A DNA stretch of 35,811 nucleotides from a virus. How positions within the stretch are numbered: the stretch's first letter is position 1; each line of letters opens with the position of its first letter. Where the stretch lies: positions 1 through 35,811 of IMG/VR virus record IMGVR_UViG_3300046011_002027, one strand, 5' to 3'. The position numbers and the translations under genes were made by a program. The notes below the pieces were generated by a model. That model was given only the letters and a program-made list of their open reading frames with translations, had not been told where the DNA came from and ran no database searches. Shown here piece by piece: positions 841-35,811 of this stretch.

Positions 841-1334
841 ATCAGCAGCAGATTGCTTTTATCTGCGGCGTGACTTCGCGCAGCATTCGAGACTGGGCCG
901 ACGCGCCACGCAATGCTGATGGGACATACAACGCGCAAGAGTTCGTCGCGTGGTTTTTGCAACGATCCTCTGGCGGCAACGGAGAGCGCGAGCATAACAA
1001 TCAGCGCGAAAGACTCGCAGCCGCGCAAGCCGAAAAAGTCGAAACCGAAAATCGAGTGCGACGCGGAGAGTTGGCCGACACAAAACAAATGATTGAGATG
1101 TGGTCGGGAGTGCTCGCTGCGGTTCGTGCGAAACTACTTTCGATGCCTACCAAACTAGGGCCACAACTTGTCAACACAGCAGAGCCAGCAATCATCGTCG
1201 GCAGAATTAGAGCAGAAGTCTATTCAGCCCTTGATGAACTTGCCGCAGATTCGACAGAGGCTAGTTTCGATTCTCAAGCCGCCACCGAAATTGACGGTGA
1301 GCCAGTGGGCCGACCAATACCGGAGACTATCTAG
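798..1334 (+). CDS. Terminase small subunit (Nu1-like)
   Basis: Protein of 178 aa that should recognise the packaging site and recruit the large subunit. Residues about 13-54 look like the winged helix-turn-helix of the lambda Nu1 family (LNQQQIAFICGVTSRSIRDW, ending in EFVAWFL). A charged helix rich in Glu/Arg/Ala (about 65-95) follows, as in Nu1, then a C-terminal region likely to contact the large subunit. The ATG lies inside the last 43 nt of the HNH gene, downstream of a GGAAAAAAGAG purine stretch, so translation is probably coupled. The 3' end overlaps the large-subunit gene by at least 100 nt in another frame. Assignment rests on the HTH and on synteny. Confidence 0.85.
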   Translation: MANRGAADVELTKLNQQQIAFICGVTSRSIRDWADAPRNADGTYNAQEFVAWFLQRSSGGNGEREHNNQRERLAAAQAEKVETENRVRRGELADTKQMIEMWSGVLAAVRAKLLSMPTKLGPQLVNTAEPAIIVGRIRAEVYSALDELAADSTEASFDSQAATEIDGEPVGRPIPETI

Positions 1335-3063
1335 CGAGGCATCCGCCGAACCCGGCGTATGGCGCACCTCTCGAGCACCGTACCAGCGCGGCGTTATGGA
1401 TGCCGTCACAGATGAAACGGTCAAAGAGGTCTGGATTCAGAAATCCGCACAGGTAGGCTGGACGGAGATCCTCAACAACGTGATCGGGTATCACGTTCAC
1501 CAAGACCCTGCGCCGATGCTGCTCGTGCAGCCAACGCTAGAGATGGCCGAGTCGTGGAGCAAGGACAGATTCGCACCGATGGTGCGGGACACGCCAGCAC
1601 TGGCCGAGCGGATCGCAGACCCCAAGGCACGCGACAGCGGCAACACGCTGCTGCACAAGAAGTTCACCGGCGGGCATCTGACGGTGGCCGGAGCGAACAG
1701 CCCTTCGGGTCTGGCCTCGCGGCCCATTCGGATCGTGTTATTCGATGAGGTGGACAGATACCCATCAAGCGCGGGCACAGAGGGCGATCCGATCTCGCTG
1801 GGCCGAAAGCGAACGGCTACCTTTTGGAGTCGCAAAGTTTTGGCAGGATCGACCCCGACCATCAAAGGATCGAGCCGCATCGAGGCTGGTTTCGAGTCGG
1901 GCGACCAGCGGTTCTACTATGTGCCATGCCCGCACTGCGGCGAGTTTCAGCGGCTCGTGTGGGCACAGGTTAAATGGCCGGAGGGTCAGCCAGAATTGGC
2001 CGAGTACGTCTGTGTGGCGTGCGGTGCGATGCTGACCGAGGCGGACAAAGCGGAGATGCTACAGGCTGGCGAGTGGCGCGGGAGCAAGCCATTCGCGGGT
2101 ATCGCATCGTTCCATATCAGCGAACTTTACTCTCCGTGGTCTACATGGGCGGAGATAGCGGTCGCGTTTATTCAAGCGAAAAGGTTTCCCGAGACGCTGC
2201 AAACGTGGATTAATACGGCCCTTGGGGAAACCTACGAGGAACGCGGCGAACAGGTGGAGACGGTAGGACTCGCGCAGCGGCGCGAACCGTACACCGCGCA
2301 GAGCATCCCGCAACAGGTGCTGATGCTCACCGCTGGCGTAGACGTACAGGACGACCGGCTAGAGATAACCATCGTCGGCTTCGGCAAGGACGAGGAGACT
2401 TGGATTGTCGAGCACGGCGTGCTGCGAGGCGATCCTGGCTCGGATTCTCTGTGGCACGACCTCGACGGATACATGGCTCGCAAACGCGAGACCGAGGACG
2501 GCCGACCGCTACTGATCGAGGCACAGGCTATCGACTCTGGCGGTCACTTCACGCAGCAAGTCTATGCCTACTGCGCCAAACGCAAAGCGCGGCGCGTGTG
2601 GGCGATCAAGGGAGCCGGTGGCTTCGGTCGGCTGATCTGGCCGAAGTCAGCGGGACGGGCAGGGAAAACCTCGGCGCAGGTTTTTATAGTCGGTGTAGAT
2701 ACAGCCAAAGACGTGCTGTACGGGCGCATGAAGCGCGTGCACCAACCGGGGGCGGGATATATTCATTTTCCCGTCTCGGTCGATGAGGTCTATTTTGACC
2801 AGTTGACCGCCGAGACATTGATCTATCGCATGGTGCAGGGGCGGCGTGTGCGGTCTTATAAGCCGCGCTCCTCGGGCAGTCGGACGGAGGCACTCGACTG
2901 CTTGGTCTACGCCTATGCTGCCTTTATAGGACGGCATGGCCCGATGATATTGCCGAACCGCAAGGTCGAACCAGTTACCGAAACGCAAGTCACAGTACAA
3001 CCGCAAAAACCACAACGTCGCCCAGCGCCCAGTCGCGGCGGGTGGATGAACGGCTGGAGATAA
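1234..3063 (+). CDS. Terminase large subunit (lambda GpA-like)
   Basis: Packaging ATPase and nuclease of the GpA family. Numbered from the ATG at 1234 (609 aa): a deviant Walker A KSAQVGWTE near 70-78 (lambda has KSARVGYSK), Walker B VLFDEVDRY near 168-176, a zinc pair CPHC (about 232) and CVAC (about 260), and a C-terminal RNase H-like nuclease with acidic residues in GVDVQDD, AIDSGGH and EALDC. The frame stays open upstream, and a TTG at 1168 preceded by TAGGG would add 22 residues. I prefer 1234 because the family homology begins just after it, but neither start has a strong ribosome site. The overlap with the small subunit is unusually long. Function is secure; the start is not. Confidence 0.95.
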   Translation: MNLPQIRQRLVSILKPPPKLTVSQWADQYRRLSSEASAEPGVWRTSRAPYQRGVMDAVTDETVKEVWIQKSAQVGWTEILNNVIGYHVHQDPAPMLLVQPTLEMAESWSKDRFAPMVRDTPALAERIADPKARDSGNTLLHKKFTGGHLTVAGANSPSGLASRPIRIVLFDEVDRYPSSAGTEGDPISLGRKRTATFWSRKVLAGSTPTIKGSSRIEAGFESGDQRFYYVPCPHCGEFQRLVWAQVKWPEGQPELAEYVCVACGAMLTEADKAEMLQAGEWRGSKPFAGIASFHISELYSPWSTWAEIAVAFIQAKRFPETLQTWINTALGETYEERGEQVETVGLAQRREPYTAQSIPQQVLMLTAGVDVQDDRLEITIVGFGKDEETWIVEHGVLRGDPGSDSLWHDLDGYMARKRETEDGRPLLIEAQAIDSGGHFTQQVYAYCAKRKARRVWAIKGAGGFGRLIWPKSAGRAGKTSAQVFIVGVDTAKDVLYGRMKRVHQPGAGYIHFPVSVDEVYFDQLTAETLIYRMVQGRRVRSYKPRSSGSRTEALDCLVYAYAAFIGRHGPMILPNRKVEPVTETQVTVQPQKPQRRPAPSRGGWMNGWR

Positions 3064-8188: not shown

Positions 8189-8533
8189 ATGGCCGCCAAG
8201 TACGACATCGTTTGCGATCAAGGCGCAACCTTCGGCCGTCAATTAACGTGGCTCGACGACTCATCGAGCGCAGTAAACTTGACCGGCTACACGGCGCGTA
8301 TGCAAGTGCGCGAAACGGTTGAGTCATCCTCTACGCTGCTGTCGCTGACCACCGAGAACTCGCGCATTGCTCTCGGCGGTACGGCTGGCACTATCACGCT
8401 AACCGTAACGGCAGCGGATACGGCAGCGGTCGTCGCCGGTCACTATGTCTATGACCTCGAGTTAGTCTCGGGCAGCACGGTGTATCGGCTGGTGCAGGGT
8501 TGCTTCACTGTAGACGCAGAGGTGACGCGATGA
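8189..8533 (+). CDS. Small beta-sandwich structural protein
   Basis: Protein of 114 aa with alternating beta strands: YDIVCDQGATFGRQLTW, VNLTGYTARMQVRE, GTITLTVTAADT and YVYDLELVSGS. The VNLTGYTARMQVR element is typical of small phage proteins that resemble the N-terminal domain of baseplate/receptor-binding proteins (BppU-like). GGAGG lies 7 nt before the ATG, and the stop overlaps the start of the next fibre gene as ATGA. That coupling suggests it joins or folds with the fibre, perhaps as its attachment collar. The family link is by motif only, so the role is a guess. Confidence 0.65.
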   Translation: MAAKYDIVCDQGATFGRQLTWLDDSSSAVNLTGYTARMQVRETVESSSTLLSLTTENSRIALGGTAGTITLTVTAADTAAVVAGHYVYDLELVSGSTVYRLVQGCFTVDAEVTR

Positions 8534-11226
8534 CCGAGCGCATCATCGTTGACGAAACTTTGCAATCGGTCGTCATTGAGGAGTCGAACAACGAAGTCGT
8601 CGTTCGTAGCGGCTGGCCCGATGGCGCGAAGAAAGGTGCGAACAGCGACATCACCTCGATGTCGGGACTCACTGGCGGCGTTGCCACGCCGACGTATATT
8701 GACTTTGCAGCGGCTGGTGCCACGGATGCCGAGCGTCGACTGGCGTGGAATCCCGACACTGGCACAGTGCAGATTGGCATGGTCGGCGGTAACGTACAGG
8801 CCGAACTCGGGCAGACGCTCTATGCCTATGTGCACAACGCTGAAGGATCGACGATTGCCAAAGGCAAGCCTGTCTATCTCTATGAAGCGACAGGCAACAA
8901 AGCATCGGTGAAACTGGCCTACAACACCACGGACGCGACCTCTGCCAAAACTTTTGGCCTCGCAGCCGAGAGCATCGCATCGGGTGCGAATGGGTTAGTC
9001 ATCTGTCAAGGCGTGCTCGATAAGATCAACACGAGCGCATATAACGAAGGCGACACGCTGTACCTCGGCGCGACTGCTGGCACGCTTACGGCCACGAAGC
9101 CGAAAGCACCGAACCACATGGTTTATGTTGGTATCGTTGAGCGGGCCAATGCTGGAAACGGGCAGATTTATGTCCGCGTGCAAAACGGCTACGAACTAGA
9201 CGAAATCCACGATGTGCAGATCAACTCGCCCGCCAATGGGCAGTTGATTATTTACGACGCCGTTACCGGGCTTTGGAAAAACGCAAACATTACCGCCGGT
9301 ACTGGCGTCTCGATTACAAACGGCGCTGGCACAATTACTATTTCTGCACCGGAGAACGGCACGGTTAGCAGCGTCGCCACTGGCACAGGGTTAACCGGCG
9401 GGCCGATTACCTCGACTGGCACGATCAGCATTGCGAACACGGCGGTTTCTGCTGGTTCGTATGGATCAGCAAGCGCGGTTCCGACGTTTACTGTCAACGC
9501 GCAGGGTCAACTCACAGCCGCATCAAATACTAACATTGCGATTTCCAATACCGCCGTAAGCGGACTTGGCACAATGTCGACGCAAAATGCTAACAGCGTC
9601 GCTATTACTGGCGGTTCCATCAATGAAACGCCAATCGGCACAACGACAGCCGCAGCGGGCGTATTCACTACACTGTTCGAGACAGTTAGCAGCACGCAAT
9701 ACGCGATCGCTTCGCAGTACGATGTAGGCACAGCGGCTAATCAAATTCCGTTGAATCAATATCTTGGAACCATGGCGTTCCAAGACGCAGCGGGCGTGTC
9801 GCTTGGACAGGTCACGATTGCCGACGGCGTGAAACTTAACGGGTTGACCGCAAGCACCGCGCTTGCAGTCGATTCAAACAAAAACATTGTTAGCGTCACC
9901 AATACCGGCACTGGTAATAACGTACTGGCAACCAGCCCGACGCTCACAACGCCAAACCTCGGTACACCGTCGGCGCTAACGCTCACGAATGCAACCGGCT
10001 TGCCGGTATCGACCGGCATTAGTGGCTTGGGCGCGAACGTAGCAACTTTCCTTGCGACGCCATCGAGCAGCAATCTTGCCGCAGCCGTGACGGATGAAAC
10101 CGGATCAGGCGCGTTAGTGTTTGCAACCAGCCCCACGCTGACCACGCCGAACCTTGGCACACCATCTGCCCTAACGCTGACGAACGCCACAGGGCTTCCA
10201 GTTTCGACAGGTATTTCGGGGCTTGGCGCTAATGTCGCCACGTTCCTTGCTACGCCGTCGAGCAGCAATTTAGCAGCAGCAGTGACAGATGAGACGGGTT
10301 CGGGAGCATTAGTCTTTGCGACTAGCCCGACGCTTACGACTCCGAACCTTGGCACACCGTCGGCAGTCACGCTAACCAACGGAACCGGATTGCCGATTAG
10401 CAGTGGCGTATCGGGGCTTGGCAGCAACGTAGCGACGGCGCTCGCAGTAAACGTCGGCACTGCCGGTGCGTTTATCGTCAACGGCGGCGCATTAGGAACG
10501 CCGTCTAGCGGCACGGTCACGAATCTGACTGGTACGGCCAGTATCAACATTAACGGAACGGTCGGCGCTACTACGCCGAATACTGGCGCGTTTACGACGT
10601 TATCGGCTACCGGCAACGTCACGCTCGGCGATGCTACGTCCGATACGATTACGGCGAATGGCCGATTCAATACCGACATTGTACCTAGCACGAATAATGC
10701 TCGGGACTTGGGTACATCGGCGTTGCAATTCCGCGATGTGTACTCTGTTGAGTATTGGGAGAACGGGTACAACATCGCGTCGCAAGCCGACGTCGGCACT
10801 GCTCCGAACCAACTCCCGCTTAACCAGTATCTCGGAACGATGGCGTTTCAAGATTCAGCGAGTATTACGGTCGGGCAGTTACGCGCTAATGGAACGGGTG
10901 GTATTGGGTACTCGACCGGAGCCGGTAGCGCGGTTACACAGGCTACATCTCGCACCACAGGCGTTACGATCAATGCCGCTTGCGGAGCGATCACGCTGGT
11001 ATCGGCAGCGGGTACAACTTCGTGGCAGACTTTCACGGTCACAAACAGCGCCGTCGCAGCCACTGATACGATTGTGGTGAATCAGAAATCGGGTACGGAC
11101 TTGAATATGATTCATGTAACGAACGTCGCAGCCGGGTCGTTTAAGATTAGTTTTGCAACGACTGGCGGAACGACCGCCGAGCAACCCGTATTCAACTTCG
11201 CTGTGATTAAATCGGTCGCGGCATAA
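8530..11226 (+). CDS. Large repetitive tail fibre protein
   Basis: Protein of 898 aa from the ATG at 8530, which overlaps the previous stop (ATGA); the frame is open further upstream, but that start lies inside the previous gene. Residues 1-230 form a distinct head domain (TERIIVDETLQSVVIEESNN, then a region with YVHNAEGSTIAKGKPVYLYE and YVGIVERANAGNGQIYVRV). The rest is low-complexity Thr/Asn/Gly/Ala beta-repeat sequence. Two 65-residue units beginning TSPTLTTPNLGTPSALTLTN follow each other with identical protein sequence, then a third, degenerate partial copy. A second duplicated block contains LPLNQYLGTMAFQD. Such repeats are common in phage fibres. There is no S74 domain; the C-terminal 70 residues look like a small beta domain. 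Confidence 0.82.
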   Translation: MTERIIVDETLQSVVIEESNNEVVVRSGWPDGAKKGANSDITSMSGLTGGVATPTYIDFAAAGATDAERRLAWNPDTGTVQIGMVGGNVQAELGQTLYAYVHNAEGSTIAKGKPVYLYEATGNKASVKLAYNTTDATSAKTFGLAAESIASGANGLVICQGVLDKINTSAYNEGDTLYLGATAGTLTATKPKAPNHMVYVGIVERANAGNGQIYVRVQNGYELDEIHDVQINSPANGQLIIYDAVTGLWKNANITAGTGVSITNGAGTITISAPENGTVSSVATGTGLTGGPITSTGTISIANTAVSAGSYGSASAVPTFTVNAQGQLTAASNTNIAISNTAVSGLGTMSTQNANSVAITGGSINETPIGTTTAAAGVFTTLFETVSSTQYAIASQYDVGTAANQIPLNQYLGTMAFQDAAGVSLGQVTIADGVKLNGLTASTALAVDSNKNIVSVTNTGTGNNVLATSPTLTTPNLGTPSALTLTNATGLPVSTGISGLGANVATFLATPSSSNLAAAVTDETGSGALVFATSPTLTTPNLGTPSALTLTNATGLPVSTGISGLGANVATFLATPSSSNLAAAVTDETGSGALVFATSPTLTTPNLGTPSAVTLTNGTGLPISSGVSGLGSNVATALAVNVGTAGAFIVNGGALGTPSSGTVTNLTGTASININGTVGATTPNTGAFTTLSATGNVTLGDATSDTITANGRFNTDIVPSTNNARDLGTSALQFRDVYSVEYWENGYNIASQADVGTAPNQLPLNQYLGTMAFQDSASITVGQLRANGTGGIGYSTGAGSAVTQATSRTTGVTINAACGAITLVSAAGTTSWQTFTVTNSAVAATDTIVVNQKSGTDLNMIHVTNVAAGSFKISFATTGGTTAEQPVFNFAVIKSVAA
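9931..10440 (+). repeat. Tandem 195-bp coding repeat, two full copies and a partial third
   Basis: Unit 1 is 9931-10125 and unit 2 is 10126-10320. A degenerate third copy starts at 10321 and fades near 10440. The two full units encode the same 65 amino acids without a single change, yet by my codon-by-codon count about 41 of 65 codons differ, including AGT versus TCG for one serine. The duplication is therefore old at DNA level while the protein was strictly kept. Confidence 0.9.
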
Positions 11227-32403: not shown

Positions 32404-32404
32404 A

Positions 32405-32510
32405 TGTCCGAATGTCCGAAAGTGTCCGAATTTGACGTTTTCGGACGGTCATTTATGTCCGAAATGTCCGAGAGACCTATGGTCTCGGACTTTCGGACAT
32501 GACCCGGACA
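32405..32510. repeat. Iteron cluster TGTCCGAA, candidate replication origin
   Basis: Direct copies of TGTCCGAA at 32405, 32413, 32423 and 32456, with TGTCCGAG at 32465. Inverted copies (TTCGGAC, TCGGAC, TTCGGACA, CCGGACA) at 32440, 32485, 32492 and 32504. Nine copies lie in 106 bases, starting 1 nt after the primase-helicase stop. GAGACC-TAT-GGTCTC (32471-32485) and GTCCGAA-N9-TTCGGAC (32424-32446) can form hairpins. TTTGACGTT is repeated at 32431 and 32516. The stretch to 32534 holds no convincing gene. Confidence 0.82.
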
Positions 32511-34270: not shown

Positions 34271-34583
34271 CGATTCGGAGATCACCGCAGCGGTGAAGGC
34301 GGCGGGGTTTAGCGTCATCGACTACACGAAAGCCGGCCTAGGCATCCCCGACAAACTCGCTATCAAGCCCTTACCTCAACCTGGAGAGAACGGCGAGCGG
34401 GTGTTCTTCATCTGTTGGCTAGAGATCAAGAGCGCGAGCGGTCGGCTCTCCGAAACCCAGCAGATAGCACGGGCAGTCTGGGAGCCTAGGGGCGAGTGGA
34501 TCGAGGCACGCGAGGCCGACCAAACAGTGCGCGATCTGATGGAAAGATACCAGGCAAAAGTAAAGCCGGAGTGTGCGCGATGA
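34242..34583 (+). CDS. VRR-NUC-like nuclease (PD-(D/E)XK)
   Basis: Protein of 113 aa, overlapping the methyltransferase end by 29 nt; a second ATG at 34254 is possible. It has AKAAGLGIPDKLA-like (here KAGLGIPDKLAIKP) with Asp37, CWLEIKSASGRLSETQ with Glu61 and Lys63, and Gln in the following helix. This PD...ExK...Q pattern is that of VRR-NUC and small phage Holliday-junction-type nucleases. It probably resolves branched DNA before packaging. The stop overlaps the next gene (ATGA). Length is normal for phage members. Confidence 0.8.
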   Translation: MRYAMRRDLNDSEITAAVKAAGFSVIDYTKAGLGIPDKLAIKPLPQPGENGERVFFICWLEIKSASGRLSETQQIARAVWEPRGEWIEAREADQTVRDLMERYQAKVKPECAR

Positions 34584-34927
34584 TCGAGTGGACGCGAGTT
34601 AGGCTGGCGCAGTGGGGCAGATGGTCTAGGGGGCGGGCGGTCTCGGGCTACCCTTCCGCCTCGGCGTTCGTATTCGCTAACTCGGGCGCACGCGCAGCGC
34701 ACGACGCATCCACGGCACCGGATGATATCGCCGAGATCGACTCGGCTGTTGCTAAGATCTCGGCCCCTCTGCGACAGGTCTTGGTCATCTATTACTGCAC
34801 CTCTGCCCCGCTCTGGTTCAAGGCTGCGAGGCTTTACATGAGCCGACGTACACTGATGCGCCGGGTTAAGACAGCCGAGGAAAAGGTAAACTTCTACTTG
34901 CTACTTGATGCCGCCCCGAAAACATGA
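34580..34927 (+). CDS. Q-like late gene regulator
   Basis: Protein of 115 aa from the ATG at 34580 (coupled). VRLAQWGRWSRGRAVSGYPS at the start, then AEIDSAVAKISAPLRQVLVI followed by YYCTSAP, and a helix-turn-helix-like end KAARLYMSRRTLMRRVKTAE. This is the pattern of small phage antitermination (Q-type/DUF1133-like) proteins, which resemble sigma-70 region 4. It lies last before the late genes if the genome is joined end to start, the usual place for Q. A direct link to the antiterminator activity is inferred, not seen. Confidence 0.68.
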   Translation: MIEWTRVRLAQWGRWSRGRAVSGYPSASAFVFANSGARAAHDASTAPDDIAEIDSAVAKISAPLRQVLVIYYCTSAPLWFKAARLYMSRRTLMRRVKTAEEKVNFYLLLDAAPKT

Positions 34928-35031
34928 TACAAGCGCGCATAATTGGGGGTTGTGCGCCCAATATGGTTCAGCCTCGACCGGCACACATTCACATGATTGA
35001 TTGATCGTTTGAGCCGACCACCGAGGCACTT
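34928..35031. other. Intergenic region with hairpin, possible late control region
   Basis: No gene. An inverted repeat ATTGGG-N9-CCCAAT lies at 34942-34962, without a T-run, so it is more likely an operator or pausing signal than an intrinsic terminator. CATAAT at 34938 could be a -10 box but has a poor -35. TGATTGATTGAT at about 34994-35005 is a short direct repeat. The region follows the Q-like gene, where a late promoter and pause site are expected. Confidence 0.4.
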
Positions 35032-35679
35032 ATGCAAATCGACGTTAGAGTTAACATCGATGACGCTATCCGAAGAATCGGATGGCAACTGAAAGATGAG
35101 ATACAGAAGGCTGTGCCCACAACTCTTAACAGAGTGGCAACGTCTGCTCGCGTCACAGCGATTGATGAGATCAACAAGATCACCGGGCTAAAGCGCACGT
35201 CCATTCGACAGAGGTTGCCGATTACTAGGGCGACTCGTGCATTGCCAGAGGCCAAGATCACGGCTCTGCGATACGCTCCTAACCTTCGCAACTTCGATGC
35301 GTATGAGGTTAAAGAGGGCGTCAGCGCGAAGGCATGGAACGTCCGCAAGATTTACCGTGGCGCGTTCATCGGCAACAAGGATAGAACAGTCTTCACAAGA
35401 GTTGACTACCGACCGCCAACCAATGCGAAGCGACGGATTGGGCAGCACACTCGCAAGGCTCATAACAGGACAAGGAACGGCACGACATTCAGCGTAAGTC
35501 AGCACACTGTCGGCGCTGGCGCGAAGAAGCCTAGATCTGACATTCGGCCTTTGTTTGGCCCTTCAGTCCCTAGAACCTTCATACAAGAGGCTGTTAATCG
35601 TTCCATTAAGAAGACAATCGACGAGAAGTGGCCTATAGAGTTTGAAAGGCAAATTGCCTTTAGACTGTCGAAAATTTGA
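35032..35679 (+). CDS. Minor tail protein Z-like
   Basis: Protein of 215 aa. IDVRVNIDDAIRRIGWQLKD, then VPTTLNRVATSARVTAIDEI, and a highly basic middle (PPTNAKRRIGQHTRKAHNRT) with an end FGPSVPRTFIQEAVNRSIKK fit the prophage minor tail protein Z family (lambda gpZ), which acts at the head-facing end of the tail. It is separated from the other tail genes by the whole early region and lies just before the terminase block if the genome is circularly permuted. GAGG lies about 6 nt before the ATG. Confidence 0.75.
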   Translation: MQIDVRVNIDDAIRRIGWQLKDEIQKAVPTTLNRVATSARVTAIDEINKITGLKRTSIRQRLPITRATRALPEAKITALRYAPNLRNFDAYEVKEGVSAKAWNVRKIYRGAFIGNKDRTVFTRVDYRPPTNAKRRIGQHTRKAHNRTRNGTTFSVSQHTVGAGAKKPRSDIRPLFGPSVPRTFIQEAVNRSIKKTIDEKWPIEFERQIAFRLSKI

Positions 35680-35763
35680 CGAAAATGTCTCAATAAACAG
35701 CATATTCACAGGCTTATCCACAGGTTTAGGCAGTTATCCACAGTGATTTGTAAGTTATTCACA
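35675..35763 (+). other. DnaA-box cluster with AT-rich flank, candidate origin
   Basis: DnaA boxes in the same orientation: TTATCCACA at 35714-35722 and 35734-35742, TTATTCACA at 35755-35763, and a near match ATATTCACA at 35702-35710. Start-to-start spacings are 12, 20 and 21 nt, close to whole helical turns. The 40 bases before them are AT-rich and could open. The first two match the bacterial consensus TTATNCACA exactly. Confidence 0.78.
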
Positions 35764-35811
35764 GGATGTCCACGGGTCCCTCCACAGGCTTCTAGCCTCG
35801 CGCCTCCTCTT
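35764..35811 (+). other. End of window, no gene
   Basis: About 48 bases with no ORF. TGTCCAC and CTCCACAGG are weaker relatives of the DnaA-type motif. The last bases (CGCGCCTCCT at 35799-35808) are nearly the reverse complement of AGGAGCGCG at 3-11, so an end-to-start join would create an imperfect hairpin in front of the HNH gene. Confidence 0.4.

Follow-up and report, generated by a model that had tools for sequence, protein, structure and literature searches.

DnaA boxes beside the right genome end

What binding sites for the bacterial initiator DnaA might do beside the packaging genes of a phage is the question raised by the linear virus contig IMGVR_UViG_3300046011_002027, which was analysed over its whole length of 35,811 bp (referred to as the window). 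Its plus strand carries exact matches to TTATNCACA at positions 35714-35722 and 35734-35742 (boxes 2 and 3, both TTATCCACA) and 35755-35763 (box 4, TTATTCACA), preceded by a one-mismatch copy (ATATTCACA) at 35702-35710 (box 1). The four boxes share a single orientation, have start-to-start spacings of 12, 20 and 21 nt and lie between the last gene (35032-35679) and a cosQ-like element, 10-72 nt to the left of the latter, with box 4 being the closest at 10 nt. The pattern search thereby confirmed an earlier note on this DNA, which had reported three exact boxes and a near match with this spacing and orientation. The AT-rich flank described in the same note is likewise present in the window, the 60 nt left of the boxes having an AT content of 65% compared with 44% for the genome.

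Exact boxes are absent from the other 35.7 kb of the window, where about 0.5-0.6 would be expected under a Markov model, while the 20 one-mismatch matches in the whole window correspond to chance level (17 expected). The match of the cluster to TTATNCACA exceeds chance and is conserved, as would be expected of DnaA sites. A search for DNA similar to the box region gave no match in phage and plasmid collections, and no DnaA C-terminal domain was found to be encoded by the phage.

The gene preceding the boxes is predicted to encode a tail completion or minor tail protein similar to Z (35032-35679, plus strand; phrog_27, E=2e-18; PF06763, E=1e-5). Further upstream a gene on the same strand (34583-34927) weakly matches antitermination protein Q (PF06530 under its cut-off; phrog_79, E=1e-4). 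The stretch following this Q-like gene (34960-35031, CCTCGACCGGCACACAT..CCGACCACCGAGG) looks common to contigs L036, L039 and L042 and represents a candidate late promoter or Q-site region. The left end of the window starts with plus-strand genes putatively encoding an HNH endonuclease (49-840; PF01844, E=9e-12), a Nu1-like small terminase subunit, TerS (798-1334; phrog_57, E=4e-25), and a large terminase subunit, TerL, of the lambda gpA type (1168-3063; PF05876, E=2e-95; PF20454, E=1e-89). A separate observation concerns an open reading frame of 908 amino acids (8500-11226) which contains near-identical protein repeats (TTPNLGTPSALTLTNATGLPVSTGISGLGANVATFLATPSSSNLAAAVTDETGSGALVFATSP).

Genome ends and cos site

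Two contigs of related phages (L004, L005) end at the sequence GGTTACGCGGC, four others (L013, L014, L015, L028) begin with it and a further four (L003, L007, L008, L027) read across the junction. Taken together, the common contig ends and the spanning contigs indicate that GGTTACGCGGC is an 11-nt cohesive end and that the two ends of the window are adjacent; a length of 12 nt would also be compatible, 11 nt being common to both ends. Judging from these contigs, the window represents a linear virion genome that was cleaved at cos. The boxes are thus indeed next to the packaging genes, as the earlier note had stated, namely across the joined ends (L003, L008, L027), since the HNH, TerS and TerL genes are located at the other end of the window. 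A second set of relatives begins at GGTAATTCGGAC, which represents another cohesive-end allele.

In the window itself GGTTACGCGGC is missing. The right genome edge before the cohesive end, CCTCGCG on the plus strand (35796-35802), was assigned from contig ends and starts and from spanning contigs of relatives, and is followed by CCTCCTCTT (35803-35811), which does not match the relatives at this position and is probably a non-phage library tail. The left end carries AAAGGAG (1-7), probably a library tail as well, and the phage sequence restarts at CGCGAAAATTGG. A purine-rich start and a pyrimidine-rich end therefore replace the cohesive end in this assembly, and several related contigs look similar, with purine-rich starts just inside their own overhang in L029, L046, L047 and L054. 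Low-complexity tails on 3' ends are known to originate from library making (adaptase tails; PMC6511391). Since the tails are found at what would be recessed 3' ends, in an adaptase-like pattern, the overhangs, as read from assemblies, are presumed to be 5' overhangs. The same pattern may allow a general mapping of cos ends from metagenome contigs.

The cosQ-like element GGGTCCC is located on the plus strand at 35774-35780, 29 nt from the cut. It contains the core GGGTCC of the sequence GGGTCCT, which we take to be the cosQ of lambda and which starts 30 nt from the right end of the lambda genome. This core is kept in the relatives with a visible cos. In lambda, cosQ is a conserved 7-bp element that is needed to stop and cut at the end of packaging (PMC4669245, PMC4856287). 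The distance of cosQ to the cut, the terminase types and a fixed cohesive-end sequence at left ends, right ends and in spanning contigs all agree with a lambda-type cos.

Conservation and loss of the boxes

The contig L008, whose TerS, TerL and Z-like proteins are 89%, 91% and 88% identical to those of the window, harbours four boxes at unchanged spacing. Between the two genomes 32/36 box positions are identical (89%) compared with 30/54 positions (56%) in the rest of the gap outside cos (Fisher p=0.001), and the changes within the boxes are restricted to positions 5 and 6. Box 1 reads ATATTCACA in L005 and ATATCAACA in L008, box 2 reads TTATCAACA in both, and box 4 is unchanged in both. Box 3 is TTATTCACA in L005 and TTATGCACA in L008 and differs solely at the free fifth position, which is C in the window, T in L005 and G in L008.

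Other arrangements were detected in relatives that have a different upstream gene and the other cosN allele (L063, L025, L079, L302, L031, L036, L034). Four of them (L063, L025, L079, L302) possess two TTATGCACA boxes 11 nt apart and 6 nt from cosQ, L031 and L036 have a single box 7 nt from cosQ (TTATGCACA and TTATCCACA, respectively), and the two boxes of L034, each with one mismatch, occupy almost the same positions. The nearest exact box in relatives is found 6-10 nt left of cosQ. Of 22 cos flanks examined in relatives, 9 contain exact boxes, compared with a mean of 0.06 in shuffled sequences (at most 2 in 2000 shuffles), a proportion that overstates independence because of near-duplicates among the flanks (L063/L351, L051/L344, L034/L255). 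A search over the full length of 12 records of relatives (about 250 kb) yielded 12 exact boxes, every one of which is located at cos in a single orientation relative to it.

The contig L016 spans cos to cos without any box, despite a nearly identical terminase (TerS 99%, TerL 98%) and cosN, and boxes are also absent from L051, L044 and L048. Since close relatives lack the boxes, the element is regarded as optional. Conservation in close relatives, on which the earlier note had made its proposal depend, is accordingly mixed, as the boxes are kept in L003, L005 and L008 and lost in L016 and L051. A broad scan for cosQ-cosN arrangements covering at least 117 distinct cosQ flanks revealed exact boxes in the lineage of the window only, among the matches listed, which suggests that the link between boxes and cos is confined to some lineages. 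In the marine relative Roseobacter phage CRP-811 no GGGTCC was detected in the stretches examined, and its cos was not located.

Contrary to what would be expected of R-site-like repeats, the presence of boxes does not follow the small terminase: TerS is 99% identical in L063, which has boxes, and L016, which has none, and only 38% identical in L025, which has them. The HNH gene has no match in the box-bearing L063. Nor do the boxes travel with the replication module, since the replication helicase is related (about 61-62%) in the box-bearing L063 and the box-free L016, and no match to it was found in L008, which has boxes. They thus persist through swaps of TerS, the HNH gene, the upstream gene and the replication module. 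This independence of the phage packaging and replication proteins points to an optional add-on to cos and fits a host protein as its ligand.

The earlier note had also described iterons forming a second origin-like region. Direct and inverted repeats of TGTCCGA(A) do exist at 32404-32500, just past the helicase gene, and appear origin-like. Among the relatives checked they were found only in the near-identical contigs L006, L009 and L011 and were absent from L004, L010 and L008, for which reason we rejected them as a conserved partner origin.

Boxes at cos in a second phage group

A second group of phages with boxes at cos surfaced in a scan for two reverse-orientation boxes before GGGTCC, which was intended as a control and whose pattern required boxes. 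As the reverse-orientation scan contained true cos sites with inverted boxes, the raw hits of 27 (forward) and 44 (reverse) do not constitute an enrichment test. Most of the other forward hits (L355-L368) were dismissed as probable chance matches, without a recognisable cosN after GGGTCC.

The layout of the second group is TGTGGATAA-CC-TGTGGATAA-(2-3 nt)-GGGTCCTTCC followed by genes for a phrog_57 TerS and a phrog_15 TerL, with two further direct boxes upstream, 20-21 nt apart, and small lysis-type (spanin-like) genes before the boxes. In these phages two to four boxes precede cosQ at a distance of 2-4 nt on its left, and TerL and TerS are 38-40% and 24-30% identical to those of the window. 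In the contigs G015 and G016 (43.3 and 40.8 kb; TerL 40%, TerS 24% identical to the window) the four boxes at cos are the sole exact boxes. A related type is represented by L397, with three boxes at 12-nt steps, and L383, with two, while L369 has two boxes ahead of a contig end resembling cos. The cultured relatives Achromobacter phage Mano, Pseudomonas phages PPpW-3 and Persinger, Burkholderia phage Mica and Enterobacter phage Arya keep GGGTCCTTCC without a box. Across the groups the spacings of 11-12 and 20-22 nt recur, corresponding to about one and two helical turns, while the number of boxes (1-4), their orientation and their distance to cosQ (2-10 nt) vary.

The contig of L406 (G023, 83,411 bases) contains two copies of the box-cos arrangement separated by about 44 kb, which is close to one genome length, and may have arisen by the joining of assemblies or comprise two phages. 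In L371, L385 and relatives, and in L417 (Mano) and L424 (Persinger), an inverted repeat like GCACCATGGTGGTGC was observed to the left of cosQ, in some cases surrounded by DnaA boxes and in others not. Other short repeats just left of cosQ are of the GAACCTGAAC type and the TCGATTTT type (L262, L242, L270, L275; L215, L290, L321, L254). The occurrence of different repeats in other phages may indicate that repeats on this side of cos are a wider theme.

Possible functions of the boxes

The position, orientation and helically phased spacing of the boxes, their conservation above that of the gap and their recurrence in the same cosQ neighbourhood of unrelated phages are direct observations. That they are sites for host DnaA under selection is well supported at the sequence level by the exact consensus, the variation mainly at the free fifth position, the conservation above the gap and the recurrence in other phages. 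We tentatively interpret them, at somewhat short of even confidence, as host-DnaA binding sites within the left (cosQ) flank of a lambda-type cos.

The host-DnaA-dependent replication origin proposed in the earlier note would imply that DnaA, once bound to the boxes, melts the AT-rich DNA on their left and brings the host helicase onto the circularised genome near cos. The four clustered boxes and the 65% AT flank of the window, and the retention of the cluster in L008, would be consistent with such a function. It seems unlikely, however, since the boxes are few in relatives (one in L031 and L036, two in L063, L079 and L302), the AT-rich DNA is not kept (35-48% AT in the left flanks of L063, L079, L031, L036 and L385) and the replication genes, including the helicase, are not tracked. 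There is also no GC-skew turning point at the site, and a general origin would have no reason to adjoin cosQ in unrelated phages. Slightly less probable still is the binding of a phage protein, either the small terminase or another one, to the repeats, the match to the DnaA consensus being convergence. Helix-phased repeats beside a packaging site do resemble terminase-binding repeats, and other repeats were found left of cosQ in other phages. A small-terminase site is nevertheless difficult to reconcile with the TerS comparison of L063, L016 and L025 and with the known TerS sites, which in lambda (PMC4669245) and in HK97 (+15 to +29, PMC11331095) are found on the right side of the cut, and convergence would have to account for two unrelated groups sharing the exact DnaA consensus with its free fifth position.

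Another doubtful explanation, which we rate marginally below the latter, is that the boxes soak up host DnaA in a datA-like manner, thereby slowing the initiation of host chromosome replication during infection. By analogy, datA consists of two consensus boxes and four boxes with one misfit, and box-carrying plasmids alter host initiation (PMC5835720); the optional presence of the boxes would also suit a fitness add-on. Titration would leave unexplained why the boxes are invariably next to cosQ and absent elsewhere, and why one box suffices in some phages. The least probable of the alternatives is that DnaA controls the late transcription which passes from the Q-like gene over cos to the genes for terminase. 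No sigma-70 promoter-like or terminator-like site was detected in the box gap, and the orientation of the boxes differs between the phage groups, despite their location between the Q-like gene and the late operon and despite the binding of DnaA to lambda DNA downstream of pO and the documented DnaA-stimulated transcription at the lambda origin (PMC3985674). The link to cosQ is explained neither by titration nor by transcription control, both of which are of low probability.

The likely DnaA sites are located beside the cut site, in unrelated phages too, which suggests a role in packaging or end handling rather than as a replication origin. The box element is most likely accessory to cos processing or to the right DNA end. 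Of the suggestion in the earlier note that DnaA controls packaging or late transcription, the packaging part fits best; cosQ is the fixed neighbour across the phages. Host DnaA would presumably bind the boxes cooperatively as a small oligomer, and this complex may, less certainly, act as an accessory host factor at cos. Its nearest parallel would be IHF at cosB of lambda, although the boxes are on the other side of the cut. The complex could either aid the terminal cut, by bending the DNA or stalling it on arrival of the motor at cosQ, or shield the right cohesive end, which is left exposed by terminase; in lambda the right end is nuclease-accessible after the cut (PMC4856287). That host DnaA serves in this way as a packaging or DNA-end factor in several lambda-type phages, binding beside cosQ and aiding the stop and cut of the motor or protecting the right cohesive end, is a proposal we put forward slightly more cautiously than the assignment of the sites. 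The variable number, orientation and distance of the boxes count against it, as they appear loose for a precise part of the packaging machinery.

Comparison with known systems

The locus resembles the cos of lambda (cosQ-cosN-cosB) in its gpA-type TerL, its phrog_57 TerS, the GGGTCC cosQ at a distance of about 30 nt from the cut, cohesive ends fitting 5' overhangs and a host DNA-binding protein as likely helper. It differs in having DnaA boxes left of cosQ, whereas lambda has IHF sites within cosB on the right side and lacks exact DnaA boxes over its final 603 bp, and in the HNH gene that separates cos from TerS. An HNH endonuclease gene (gp74) beside the terminase genes is shared with HK97, in which gp74 stimulates cos cleavage in vitro (PMC11331095). 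In contrast to the 5' overhangs presumed here and the boxes on the left, the overhangs of HK97 are 3' overhangs of 10 nt, and its TerS site is located to the right of the cut.

Exact boxes in helical phase are a common feature with the E. coli oriC arrays and datA. The 11-nt steps in the L063 and L371 groups, with 2 bp between boxes, match the arrayed sites of oriC, whose 2-bp distance permits cooperative DnaA binding (PMC6070618). Unlike oriC and datA, the relatives of the phage lack an AT-rich opening region, have few boxes and show a fixed tie to the packaging site. Host DnaA on phage DNA has a precedent in lambda, for which footprints were reported (PMC3985674), yet those boxes are located at pO and the replication region and not at cos. 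A search of the open-access literature revealed no paper joining DnaA boxes to cos sites or terminase.

If DnaA acts at cos, the initiator of chromosome replication would also serve phage packaging or end protection, as IHF does for lambda. Such a role would bear on the stopping of the motor at cosQ and on the survival of the exposed right end. The contigs L063 and L016 provide a ready comparison, with boxes naturally present in the former and absent from the latter at nearly unchanged packaging genes.
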